Assembly: GCA_018432315.1 (NCBI GenBank)
Contig: JAHDLB010000010.1
Span: 1 to 64,000 of the forward strand
DNA: 64,000 bases
Direction of reading: 5' to 3'
Source of the DNA: Anaerolineae bacterium
GTDB lineage: Bacteria; Chloroflexota; Anaerolineae; Aggregatilineales; Aggregatilineaceae
Of the stretch, positions 36,150-40,544 are shown piece by piece. Position 1 is the first letter of the stretch. Every line of letters begins with the position of its first letter. The notes beneath the pieces are model-generated. The model was not told the DNA's origin. It made no database searches and saw nothing but the letters and a program-made list of their open reading frames with translations. The position numbers and the translations under genes are program-made.

Positions 36150-36977
36150 CTAGAGGTCGCGCAGCTCGTCGAGACGGTCGAGACACGCCTGGTACTCGCG
36201 CTCCAGCCGCTCGGCCATGTCGCGTAGCACGTCGCGCCCGCGCCGCCTGGCGAGCGTCTGTTCCAGCTTGAGCGCCATCAGGTCGCTGTTGATCAGCTCC
36301 AGCCGATCCGCTTTCAGACGGTCGATGCGCTCCGCCAGTTGGGCGGAGATCTGGCGTAGCTGGCGCGCCTGGATGGCGGCGAGCGGCTCGACCGGGGCGG
36401 CGTCGACCGTCTGCCCGGCCAGCGCCCGCAGCGCTTCGACATCGCGGCGCATGTACGCGTCGTTGATCTCGGCCATCAGCCGGTTGCGCCGGGTCCGCTC
36501 GGCGGGGTCGGTGGTCAGGTCCGGGTGGTAGCGCCGCGCCAACTGCCGGTAAAGGGTCTTGATGGCCGTCTCGGGCGGCTCGCCAACCGTGACGGTTTCG
36601 GGCGCGGCGGGCGGGGGCGCGTGCGCCTCGCGCTCTGTGGGCACCTGCCACGCGCGGCGAAACTGCTCCTCGACCGGGACGTAGTCCGGCGGCGGAGTCC
36701 AACTGGATTCCAGGGTGGGACGGTCCGGGGCGGGGCCAAGCTGGGGCGGCGGACTATGCTGGGCTTCCAGGTCGGCGATCACGCTGCGAATGATCTCCAG
36801 GCGGTCGAGCAGCGGCTTGATCAGCCGGTCGTAGCGCTCCTGGAAAGTGTGCAGTTCGCGCCGCAGGTCGAGCAGGTCGGCTTCGAGCGCGGTGAGCTCG
36901 GTTTCCTGGCGGGCGATGTCGGCCTTGAGCCGCGCGATTTCCGCCTGGGGATCGAAGCCGGGGAATCCGTTCGGCAT
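36150..36977 (-). CDS. J-domain-like protein with N-terminal coiled coil
   Basis: A 275-residue protein. Residues 8-75 form a heptad-rich coiled coil (ARLKADIARQETELTALEAD and on). A Pro-rich linker follows. At about 138-175 lies a J-domain-like helical hairpin with KTLYRQLARRYHPDLT, including the HPD motif that stimulates Hsp70 ATPases. The C-terminal 90 residues are again strongly helical and charged. The J domain is short and has divergent flanks, so partner use is uncertain. The start ATG overlaps the stop of the upstream cyclase gene by one base (TGATG), implying coupled translation with it. Confidence 0.85.
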   Translation of the reverse strand: MPNGFPGFDPQAEIARLKADIARQETELTALEADLLDLRRELHTFQERYDRLIKPLLDRLEIIRSVIADLEAQHSPPPQLGPAPDRPTLESSWTPPPDYVPVEEQFRRAWQVPTEREAHAPPPAAPETVTVGEPPETAIKTLYRQLARRYHPDLTTDPAERTRRNRLMAEINDAYMRRDVEALRALAGQTVDAAPVEPLAAIQARQLRQISAQLAERIDRLKADRLELINSDLMALKLEQTLARRRGRDVLRDMAERLEREYQACLDRLDELRDL

Positions 36978-38710
36978 CAGAGCGCGCTCTTTTTCACTCG
37001 CAGGACGCGATACATGACGCGGAAACCGGCGTATCCTTTCGTCTTGTGGGGGCGGAGCGCCTCACATTCGAACACGTCCCGAATCTGCTCGAACGTGCGC
37101 TCGCTGATGATGATCTGCCCCGCCTGCGCGTTCTCTTGCAGCAGCTTGGCGAAGTTGAACGGCTGGCCGATGGCCGTAAATTCCTTGCGGCTGGGGCTGC
37201 CGACGTTGCCCAGCATGGCGCTGCCCGTGTCGATCCCGATCCCGTAACCCAGGCGCTGCTCGGGCGGGAGCACTTCGTGCAGCGCGCGCACGTCGTAGGC
37301 CATCGACAGCGCCGCCCGGACGGCGCGCACGGCGTGGTCGCTTTGCGGGTTGAGCTGGGTATTGAACAGCCCGACGACGGCGTCGCCCATGTACTTGTCG
37401 ATGATGCCGTCGTGCAGCTCGACGGCGTCTGACGCCACGGTCAGGTAGCGGGTGATCACCGTCATGAGCTCTTCGGGCGGCAGGTGCTCGCTGAACGTCG
37501 TGAAGCCGCGTACGTCGGCGAAGATGATCGATACCTCGCGCTCGTCACCGCTCAGGCCCAGGTCGTCGATGCTCTGGATGTGGCGCACCAGGCGCGGCGA
37601 GAGATAGGTCCGCACGACGTTCAGGGTGGCCTCGCGCTGCTTGATCGCGGTGAGATCGTCCACGACCACGACGAGACCGTAAGTGACGTTGTTCACGTCC
37701 TGCAGGGGGGTGAGCTTGATCCGCAGATTCACTGCCCCGCGCCCCGGCAGGACCGGCTCGACCTCGATGGTCTGCGGCGTGTGCTCGCGGAAGACGGCAT
37801 CGATCAGCGCGTGGGCGCGCTCGAAGAAACCGGGAAATACCTCTTGCAGCGATCGCCCCACGATGTCCCCCGGCGTGACGTTGAGAATGCGTCCCGCAGC
37901 CTGGTTGCAGGTCAAGATCGTGTGGGCGCTGTTGGTGGTGATCACCCCGCTGGCGACCGATGCAAAGACGTTGCCCATCATGTCCTTGATCTCGGTGATC
38001 TCGCGCAGCGCGCGCCGGGCGCGGTCGTAGAGGCGGGCGTTCTCGATGGCGATGGCCGCCTGGTGCGCGAACGCCGCCAGCAGGTTGAGCTCCTTCTCGC
38101 CGAACAGACCGGCCACGCGCCGGTTGTCGGCGTACAGCACGCCGGTGACGCGCTCGCGGAAGATCAGCGGCACGCACAGGATCGAGCGAGTCGCCTGGGA
38201 GGCGATGCTGGCCTGGGCGTTGAACTCCGGATCGAGCAGCGCATCCGACGCGATCACGGGCTGGCCGGAGTGCGCGACTTCCGCGAGGATGGTCCGCGAA
38301 ACGTTGAAGCGGTCCGGCTCGATGGTGCGCTGTTGGTTGTCGCGCGCGACGCGGAATTCAAGCTCGCCGGTGCGCGACGAATGGAGCACGATGAAGCCGC
38401 GCTCGGCGCCGGTGAGGGCGATGGCGGTATCCATCACCTGTTCCAGCACGGCGTCGAGCTCCAGCGACGAGTTGACGATCTGGGTGGTCTGAGCCAGCGC
38501 GCGCAGCCGGTCTATCTCGGCGCCATGCCCGGCGATCCGCCGCTCGAGGCGGGCCAGATCCGTCTGCGCGTAGGCCAGCTTTTCGAGCACGTCCGACGGC
38601 AGGACGATGCCCCGCTGGCGGAGGATGTCGTGCTGGGCGCGCAGCCCCTGTTCCAGGGCGGCGAGCTGCTCCTGGATCTGCGTGAGGGTCGCGTGGGCGG
38701 CGGGCTGCAT
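36977..38710 (-). CDS. GAF-PAS-class III cyclase, C1-like subunit (transition-state Arg missing)
   Basis: A 577-residue soluble protein: N-terminal coiled coil (1-75), GAF (about 80-230, with ERGFIVLH and RSILCVPLI), PAS (about 245-355), and a class III nucleotidyl cyclase domain (390-530). Both metal aspartates are present: D399 in IIFADVRGFTTF and D443 in DKYMGDAVVGLF. The transition-state Asn is kept (N519), but the Arg four residues later is Leu (L523 in FNFAKLLQ), and the usual GD before it is GQ. By itself a homodimer should be poorly active. It begins two bases after the stop of a homologous cyclase gene with the opposite defect. Product (cAMP or cGMP) cannot be told. Confidence 0.9.
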   Translation of the reverse strand: MQPAAHATLTQIQEQLAALEQGLRAQHDILRQRGIVLPSDVLEKLAYAQTDLARLERRIAGHGAEIDRLRALAQTTQIVNSSLELDAVLEQVMDTAIALTGAERGFIVLHSSRTGELEFRVARDNQQRTIEPDRFNVSRTILAEVAHSGQPVIASDALLDPEFNAQASIASQATRSILCVPLIFRERVTGVLYADNRRVAGLFGEKELNLLAAFAHQAAIAIENARLYDRARRALREITEIKDMMGNVFASVASGVITTNSAHTILTCNQAAGRILNVTPGDIVGRSLQEVFPGFFERAHALIDAVFREHTPQTIEVEPVLPGRGAVNLRIKLTPLQDVNNVTYGLVVVVDDLTAIKQREATLNVVRTYLSPRLVRHIQSIDDLGLSGDEREVSIIFADVRGFTTFSEHLPPEELMTVITRYLTVASDAVELHDGIIDKYMGDAVVGLFNTQLNPQSDHAVRAVRAALSMAYDVRALHEVLPPEQRLGYGIGIDTGSAMLGNVGSPSRKEFTAIGQPFNFAKLLQENAQAGQIIISERTFEQIRDVFECEALRPHKTKGYAGFRVMYRVLRVKKSAL

Positions 38711-38712
38711 GG

Positions 38713-40479
38713 CTAGCGCTCGGGCACCGGCTGGGCACGCCGGATCTCGTAGACGGTCGTTGCCTGGCGGCGGCCCCGGACCTGGAGACTGGACTCGATG
38801 AGGCTGATGCCGCTCGCCGGGTCGGACAGGCGCGGCCCGCAGTGCCGGCGGGTGTCGTCGCTGATGATGATCTGGCCCGGCCTGGCGCTCTCTTGCAGGC
38901 GCTTGGCGAGGTTGACCGAGTCCCCGATGGCGGTGAACTCGCGCCGGGTCTGGCTGCCGACGTTGCCTACCGTGGCGATGCCGGTGTGAATGCCGATCGT
39001 GTAATACGGGATGGGTTCTTCGCCGAGATCGGCCAGCAGCCGGGCGAACTCGTCGGCCAGCGCCAGCCCGGCCTGCACGGCGTTCCAGGCGTGATCCGGG
39101 CTGGGGTTCAACTGCGTGTTGAACAGGCCCATGATCTCGTTGCCCATGAACTTGTCGATCAGGCCGGTGAACTTGTGAATCGTGTCGGCGCCCATCGTCA
39201 GGTGGAGGTTGAGATGATCGGTCAGTTCGTGCGGCGCCAGGGCAGGGGGGAAGCTGTTGAACGGGCGCACCTCCACGAACAGGATGGTGATCTCGCGGCG
39301 CTCGCCGCCCAGGCCCAGGCCGTCCAGGCTCTGGATGTGGTCGAGCATGGTCGGCGGCAGGTAGCGCCGGGCTACGTCGAGCGTGGCGTCGCGCTGCCGG
39401 ATCTCGGTGAGGTCGTCGAGCACGATGGTGATGCCTTCGATCACGTCCTGGTTTTTGAGCGGGGTGATCTTGAGCCGGAGGTACGTCCGACCCCGGCCCG
39501 GCACCGTGGGGTCGACCTCGATGGTGTGCTCGTGCCCGTGGCGAAACACTTCGGGCAGCAGGTCGTGAACGTACGCGTAGATGACCGGCAGCACGCGCCC
39601 CAGCGGCTGGCCCAGTACGGTGAGGCCCGGCGCGTTCAGGATGTGCTCGGCGGCGAGATTGTACGTGGTCACGATCTGTTCGGTGTCGGTCGTGATCACG
39701 CCGCTGGTGATGGACGAGAACACGTTGTCCATCAGCTCTTTGATCTCGGTCATCTCGGCCAGCGTGGTCTGCACGCTCTGGTAGAGCCGCGCGTTTTCGA
39801 TGGCGACGGCGGCCTGGTTGGCAAACGCCACCAGCAGCGAGCGGTGGGTTTCGCCGAACAGCCCGTCGCGAACCCGGTTGTCGACGTAGACGACACCGGT
39901 GACCGTCCCGCGCACGACGAGCGGCACGCACAGGATCGAGCGCAGCCCGTGGATCATGACGCTCTCGTGACCACTGAAGTTCGGGTCCGCCTGGGCGTTG
40001 GTCGCGATCACGGCCTCGCCGGTCTGGGCGACCTGGTTGACGATCGTCCGGCTGACGATGAATTCGCCTTCGTCGATGGTTTCGCGCTCCAGGTTTCGCG
40101 CCACGCGGAAGGCCATCTCGCCCGTGACCGGATCGCGCAGCACGATATACCCGCGCTGGGCGCCGGTCAGCGTGATGACCGTGTCCATCACCTGGTTGAG
40201 AACCTGGTTGATGTCGAGCGACGAGGTGACGAGGGCCGCCGTACCGGCCAGGGCGCGGAGCTGGTCGAGCTCGACGATCTCGCGGTTGATCTGTCCGGCC
40301 AGCGTGTCGAGGCTGCGCCGGATGGCCTGCAAGCCTTCGAGCGTGCCCGGCGGCAGGCTCATGCCTTGCTGGCGGAGCATGTCGTACTGGTGGTGAAGGC
40401 TCGCGACGGATTCATCGATGATCCAGCCCAGGCGATCGATCGCGTGCTGAACACTCTGATTATCGGCTGGACTGGTCAT
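38713..40479 (-). CDS. GAF-PAS-class III cyclase, C2-like subunit (metal Asps missing)
   Basis: A 588-residue homologue of the next gene, with the same order: coiled coil (1-80), GAF (about 85-235), PAS (about 250-365) and cyclase domain (395-535). Here the two metal aspartates are replaced: E403 in ILFVEVRPFNSF and N447 in DKFMGNEIMGLF. The lysine K443, transition-state N523 and R527 (in GDSVNLAKRLQ) are intact. This is the residue set of a mammalian C2 domain, while the downstream partner keeps the C1 set. The ATG at 40479 is used; an upstream in-frame ATG at 40518 lies within the -10 box and cannot be in the transcript. Confidence 0.9.
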   Translation of the reverse strand: MTSPADNQSVQHAIDRLGWIIDESVASLHHQYDMLRQQGMSLPPGTLEGLQAIRRSLDTLAGQINREIVELDQLRALAGTAALVTSSLDINQVLNQVMDTVITLTGAQRGYIVLRDPVTGEMAFRVARNLERETIDEGEFIVSRTIVNQVAQTGEAVIATNAQADPNFSGHESVMIHGLRSILCVPLVVRGTVTGVVYVDNRVRDGLFGETHRSLLVAFANQAAVAIENARLYQSVQTTLAEMTEIKELMDNVFSSITSGVITTDTEQIVTTYNLAAEHILNAPGLTVLGQPLGRVLPVIYAYVHDLLPEVFRHGHEHTIEVDPTVPGRGRTYLRLKITPLKNQDVIEGITIVLDDLTEIRQRDATLDVARRYLPPTMLDHIQSLDGLGLGGERREITILFVEVRPFNSFPPALAPHELTDHLNLHLTMGADTIHKFTGLIDKFMGNEIMGLFNTQLNPSPDHAWNAVQAGLALADEFARLLADLGEEPIPYYTIGIHTGIATVGNVGSQTRREFTAIGDSVNLAKRLQESARPGQIIISDDTRRHCGPRLSDPASGISLIESSLQVRGRRQATTVYEIRRAQPVPER

Positions 40480-40516: not shown

Positions 40517-40544
40517 ATTATACCGGGTTGGAGGCCATCAGCAA
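40517..40544 (-). promoter_or_regulatory. Promoter of the cyclase pair / J-protein operon
   Basis: On the minus strand a perfect -10 TATAAT (40517-40522) and a -35 TTGCTG (40539-40544) are 16 bases apart, 38 bases before the first cyclase start. Confidence 0.75.

Follow-up and report, generated by a model that had tools for sequence, protein, structure and literature searches.

Organisation of the gene pair

The window analysed here, a stretch of 64,000 nucleotides from an Anaerolineae bacterium, contains two class III cyclase genes that we have called A (38713..40479, minus strand) and B (36977..38710, minus strand), encoding proteins of 588 and 577 amino acids, respectively. The genes lie head to tail, B following A with only 2 bases between them (38711-38712), and the reading frames, coordinates and two-base gap proposed in a first-pass annotation were all recovered on re-reading. 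The Pfam domains GAF, PAS and Guanylate_cyc (PF00211) were found in identical order in both proteins, above the curated cut-offs; the PF00211 match covered residues 395-547 of A (38839..39297, minus strand) with 49.6 bits and residues 391-559 of B (37034..37540, minus strand) with 54.8 bits, the curated cut-off being 21.9. An N-terminal helical segment was predicted in each protein; that annotation had given both a coiled coil-GAF-PAS architecture. The two proteins are 48% identical over their length.

Downstream of B, and with its start overlapping the B stop, lies a gene for a DnaJ-like protein (P0003, 36150-36977, minus strand), whose weak DnaJ-like match of 23.5 bits is below the cut-off. 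A conserved-neighbour module, with the DnaJ-like protein downstream and TopA upstream, was rejected because tblastn of 97 long loci found the former in 2/97 and the latter in 1/97; clustering of the flanking genes at 105 loci showed no neighbour common to more than 12 of them. A and B themselves were directly adjacent in 100/100 measured pairs, with -25 to +161 nt from the A stop to the first aligned B residue. This adjacency was kept while the flanking genes changed, suggesting that it is held by something specific to the pair. It also makes plausible the earlier idea that one promoter serves both genes, although this remains unproven, because a promoter scan upstream of gene A reported no site. 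A candidate recognised by eye, TTGCTG-16 nt-TATAAT (40517..40544, minus strand), was absent from the scan and is weak.

Active-site residues and predicted structure of A and B

In class III cyclases with C1 and C2 halves, one half gives the metals and the other gives the purine-selecting residues and the transition-state Asn and Arg, according to the portion of the source available (PMC4174876). Protein A of the window has neither metal Asp, as E403 (39271..39273, minus strand) stands at the first metal position and N447 (39139..39141, minus strand) at the second, and it keeps K443, T516, N523 and R527, the transition-state Asn and Arg being encoded within 38899..38913 (minus strand). Protein B keeps both metal Asp residues, D399 (37514..37516, minus strand) and D443 (37382..37384, minus strand), as well as the FADVRGFT..FSE loop, and its transition-state Arg is gone, L523 (37142..37144, minus strand) standing where this residue is expected; the other two B residues read were K439 and N519. 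The complementary active-site losses that had been claimed for the two proteins were thus borne out residue by residue.

Neither A nor B meets the criterion for a homodimeric adenylyl cyclase, namely the full D, K, D, T/D, N and R set in one chain. When the two are combined, exactly one complete site results, made up of D399/D443 from B and K443/T516/N523/R527 from A, as far as sequence alone can tell. The adenylyl-type pair in class III cyclases is a Lys plus Thr or Ser at the purine positions, and the class IIIb rule likewise asks for Lys together with Thr or Ser where the purine is selected. This class IIIb adenylyl cyclase criterion was met by K443/T516 of A, which points to ATP and cAMP. 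The criteria for a soluble guanylate cyclase (sGC), namely NO-sensing domains (H-NOX/HNOB) and a Glu/Cys specificity for guanine, were not fulfilled, since Pfam gave only GAF/PAS sensors and the purine positions carry K/T.

Single-chain AlphaFold models of A and B had a mean pLDDT of 86.0 and 83.6, respectively, with the cyclase fold kept in both. Values in the catalytic parts were mostly 84-98, with dips at residues 381-390 of A, just before the catalytic part (55), and at residues 501-510 of B (69). Foldseek matched both models to 2w01, 1wc1 (1wc0-1wc6) and 3r5g, with a target TM of 0.79-0.88. Among the full-length human sGC chains, the A model found a beta chain best (8hbe_B at rank 14, 8hbe_A at rank 26) and the B model an alpha chain (8hbf_A at rank 12, 8hbe_B at rank 35). 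These ranks would fit a C2-like A and a C1-like B, but the rmsd was over 20 in the long alignments and this comparison of models is weak evidence to which we give little weight. In sequence searches at E<=0.001, human sGC beta-1 was reached by A alone and the AC5 C1 chain by B alone.

Distribution of the pair and sampling of homologues

A search with gene A through its own family gave matches in 18/18 genomes; those of one genome (G006) involved only the sensor part or unrelated cyclases, and the G006 match is a GAF-type relative rather than a cyclase of the A/B pair. Through its own order, 145/154 genomes matched at E<=1e-60, mostly with two matches each, and the other 9 genomes had no gene A match at this threshold. 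A single match was found in one family of the order (f8, 9 genomes) and in many families belonging to other orders of the class. The tandem pair is spread across one order of Anaerolineae (Chloroflexota), and where public contigs of the relatives carry a name, this is Anaerolineae, Anaerolineales or Chloroflexi. Outside f8, no lone intact A or B was found that could not be explained by a contig end (G014, G035, G050, G052, G062, G075, G133 and G135 were checked).

For the residue counts, the DNA of pairs and single-copy relatives was taken, open frames were read and the genes were classed as first or second by gene order alone, not by their residues. The aligned genes were then read at six columns. 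Reading covered 106 pairs in total; 98 of these had every column needed, and 8/106 were left out for gaps at key columns (G004, G013, G017, G057, G061, G074, G096 and G104). Broken, split or one-sided loci were also left out (G006, G014, G034, G035, G050, G052, G062, G075, G133 and G135), and the pair counts do not include 21 genomes of the order with matches, 19 of which are in genus g46.

Two loci of the order, L244:1611-3215 (+) and L245:1242-2804 (-) (genomes G134 and G137), each encode two cyclase domains in one open frame. Read by eye, the first domain keeps both metal Asp residues, its Lys and Asn positions being E and T, and the second keeps Asn and Arg, its metal positions being N and S. 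These frames look like a soluble one-chain cyclase of the C1/C2 type.

Conservation of the two half-sites

The purine and transition-state columns of A were conserved throughout, with Lys, Asn and Arg each in 106/106 genes, and Thr in 100 and Ser in 6 at the remaining position. At the second metal position Asp was never found in the 106 A genes (N 55, T 27, S 20, and one each of G, A, Q and H). The first metal position was D in 54, E in 40 and another residue in 12. The loss of both metal Asp residues that the first-pass annotation described for A of the window accordingly extends to all counted A genes only for the second (0/106 D); the first is variable and still Asp in 54/106. The E403 of the window is a lineage-variable change, and N447 and L523 are universal losses in the counted pairs.

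In B, each metal position was Asp in all of the 105 readable genes (D1 105/105, D2 105/105). Arg was present in 0/98 readable genes at the transition-state position and Asn was kept in 15/98, that is, lost in 83/98; the Lys column contained K in 93 and Q in 11 of the 104 readable genes. All 98 complete pairs (98/98) were complementary, the first gene being without the second Asp and keeping Lys, Asn and Arg, and the second keeping both Asp residues and being without Arg. Since the same split occurs in every pair complete at the key columns, it cannot be put down to chance. That annotation had also called for an alignment of homologues, and no readable pair in it showed the two losses independently of each other.

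The Lys to Gln replacement in 11/104 B genes belongs to genus g46 (e.g. L239:2172-4019 and L241:1889-3655) and corresponds to one change on the tree; it is a further decay of the unused half of B.

Single-copy relatives carried the D, K, D, T/S and N set in 37/37 genes and R in 36/36 readable ones. As a control, 30 non-orthologous class III cyclases of related genomes were read, with D1, D2 and Arg in 30/30 and Asn in 29/30. This set derived from 33 loci, of which 32 yielded rows (L006 gave none), after omission of two f8 orthologues and one extra weak L210 row; being a sample of best-scoring matches, it leans towards intact enzymes.

Evolutionary history of A and B

Trees of the full-length proteins and of the catalytic columns separated A, B and the single-copy genes; A grouped with B, and the f8 singles fell outside them. 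Both the catalytic tree and the final-count tree were built with the key columns removed, and in the latter the clade supports were 1.0 for A, 0.97 for B and 1.0 for the singles. One duplication explains this tree. Duplication followed by complementary loss, suggested earlier as the simplest explanation, is now directly supported, because extant singles carry the full site (37/37, Arg in 36) and because the A clade is sister to the B clade.

A tree of the GAF-PAS sensor region, by contrast with the catalytic and full-length trees, failed to separate A from B. As it contained neither an A nor a B clade, gene conversion between the two was considered, and it was rejected because an A nearer to the B of its own pair than to every other A was seen in only 1/100 pairs in the sensor region and in 0/100 in the catalytic region; that one case is perhaps a local conversion.

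Parsimony within the A clade required 0 changes for each of K, N and R, against 16 for D1 and 20 for D2. Within the B clade, D1 and D2 required 0 changes each, against 33 for N, 19 for R and 20 for the purine-position T. The absence of change in one half-site and the many changes in the other indicate that, across the radiation, selection has maintained one composite site and relaxed its hold on the other. Because all 98 pairs go back to one origin, they do not count as 98 independent events, and the evidence lies in the contrast of rates rather than in the count as such. Simple pseudogene decay of one copy was rejected: in each copy, one half-site is strictly invariant.

These rates also bear on the possibility that A is a catalytically dead regulatory subunit, a pseudoenzyme, and B a non-canonical homodimeric cyclase working without the transition-state Arg. 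Some class III enzymes, such as Rv1900c, are active despite non-canonical substrate-binding residues, and B does retain both metal Asp residues and the phosphate loop. However, such an arrangement gives no reason for K, N and R of A to be present in 106/106 genes with 0 changes, and B has lost not only its Arg but also Asn in 83/98 readable genes and Lys in 11/104. We regard a B homodimer as very unlikely.

The two half-sites as a whole went the way of their key residues: B retained the FADxRGFTxxSE metal/phosphate loop of the singles (G.98, F 1.00, S.98, E 1.00), whereas in A it was eroded (G.04, F.36, S.06, E.04). Residue 448 of A (39136-39138), just after the lost second Asp and a Glu in the window, was acidic in 102/106 A genes (E 96, D 6), and the singles have Ala there. 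Thr at position 503 of A reached.99, the singles having Val (1.00), and at the position of residue 390 B had Glu (.95) and the singles Arg (.97). That these newly fixed residues (E448 and T503 of A, Glu at 390 of B) have a role in the dead site or force hetero-pairing is only a guess.

Acid follows the lost second Asp in 102/106 A genes and stands at the first metal position in 94/106, so that an A:A homodimer with a displaced metal ligand cannot strictly be ruled out. A would then be an active homodimer taking its metals through E403 and the shifted acid E448, and B its decayed partner. Against this stand the erosion of the metal/phosphate loop in A and the 12/106 A genes where acid is lost at the first metal position; the two Asp residues of B, with 0 changes, would also be left unexplained. 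We consider an active A homodimer very improbable.

Proposed heterodimeric cyclase

We propose that A and B, as its two subunits, make up one soluble class III adenylyl cyclase that works only as an A:B heterodimer, a reading to which we assign a probability of about 0.87. It starts from what is observed for the two genes, that is, their residues, adjacency, co-conservation, single duplication and full-site relatives; the pairing, the inactivity of the homodimers, the catalysis and the cAMP product are inferred, and no biochemistry for either A or B was found. B would be the C1-like (sGC-alpha-like) subunit, with D399 and D443 holding the two catalytic metals, and A the C2-like (sGC-beta-like) subunit, with K443/T516 for the adenine and N523/R527 for the ribose and phosphate in the transition state. 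Each heterodimer would have one complete site, and the second one, in which the metal half of A faces the Asn/Arg half of B, would be dead and free to drift or to acquire a regulatory role. The GAF and PAS domains on both chains may pass signals via the helices into the dimer. The pair would go back to a single event, in which a homodimeric cyclase with a full site was duplicated in tandem in an ancestor shared by most families of one Anaerolineae order, and the complementary loss would have come after it.

Further observations count against the heterodimer. The Lys of B is kept in 93/104 readable genes, and a composite site has no need of it. The dropped fragments that were readable at key columns and belonged to the pair fit the complementary pattern, except for the A-like fragment of G034, an excluded genome with its genes split by breaks; the first and second metal positions of this fragment read N and E, respectively.

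The genome contains 14 matches to cNMP-binding domains, none of them tied to the A/B pair, and these proteins are possible cAMP receptors. Other intact cyclases are also present, and A and B could instead form a heterodimeric nucleotide-binding sensor, neither making a cNMP any more, as complementary binding residues alone could retain ATP binding without turnover. We give hardly any credence to a pure sensor, since the strictly kept set includes both metal Asp residues and the Asn and Arg that carry out the chemistry, and to keep these in 98 pairs is more than binding alone would require.

A wider version of the heterodimer proposal is tentative, and we think it rather less probable than not. 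It would have an order-wide obligate two-gene heterodimeric adenylyl cyclase, independent of eukaryotic C1/C2 and sGC, with the full-site homodimeric ancestral form still alive in sister families; E448 and T503 of A and Glu at 390 of B would mark a re-purposed dead site or a hetero-pairing interface, so that both GAF-PAS inputs must agree before cAMP is made.

Comparison with known cyclases

The closest solved catalytic domains, in sequence and in fold, are those of Cya2, Spirulina CyaC and P. aeruginosa CyaB (2w01, 1wc0-1wc6 and 3r5g), which share with A/B the class and the type of reaction. In the part of a review that was accessible, bacterial class III adenylyl cyclases homodimerise and their monomers contribute equally (PMC9552081); in contrast with enzymes so described, A and B each lack half of the site. 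The single-copy orthologues (f8 and other Anaerolineae families) are in the length class of A and roughly 40-50% identical to it, but they are one gene with a complete site (37/37, Arg seen in 36) and represent the pre-duplication state.

As far as the available portions of the sources go, the second C1/C2 site of the mammalian membrane adenylyl cyclase is dead and binds forskolin (PMC4174876), and the mammalian C1 and C2 halves lie as two domains on a single membrane chain and are of eukaryotic origin (PMC9552081). The likeness to A/B that can be drawn from these portions is one composite site, with metals from one half and purine and transition-state residues from the other. Unlike C1/C2, A and B are two soluble proteins that carry GAF-PAS sensors, are encoded by neighbouring bacterial genes and have an origin of their own. 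In sGC the alpha chain gives the metal Asp residues and beta gives R552, the homodimers are inactive and the site is pseudo-symmetric, according to an extract of PMC3591389. Judged from that extract, sGC resembles A/B in having two homologous chains with a split site; it differs in its cGMP product, its NO sensor and its other sensory domains, A having the adenylyl-type K/T pair and A/B having GAF-PAS sensors. The chytrid rhodopsin guanylyl cyclases NeoR/RGC show activity only when two homologous proteins pair as a heterodimer, in the accessible text of PMC7655827, and differ from A/B in being eukaryotic, with membrane rhodopsin sensors and cGMP as product.

No precedent for a bacterial two-gene heterodimeric class III cyclase was found in searches of the open literature, which is weak evidence of absence because most subscription papers were outside their scope. 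On that footing, the new element would be a bacterial, independently evolved two-gene heterodimeric cyclase, its pairing being inferred, the known cases being the eukaryotic C1/C2, sGC and NeoR/RGC. Heterodimeric class III cyclases are textbook matter for animals, and the passage of the review available to us has the bacterial ones as homodimers (PMC9552081). The A/B pair would imply that bacteria can evolve, and keep, a cyclase dimer whose chains divide the labour unequally, and the questions of why an active site is split and what the dead site does would become directly testable in soluble proteins. In one bacterial order, nature would have cleanly repeated the C1/C2 step, and pre-duplication relatives exist that can be assayed side by side with the pair.
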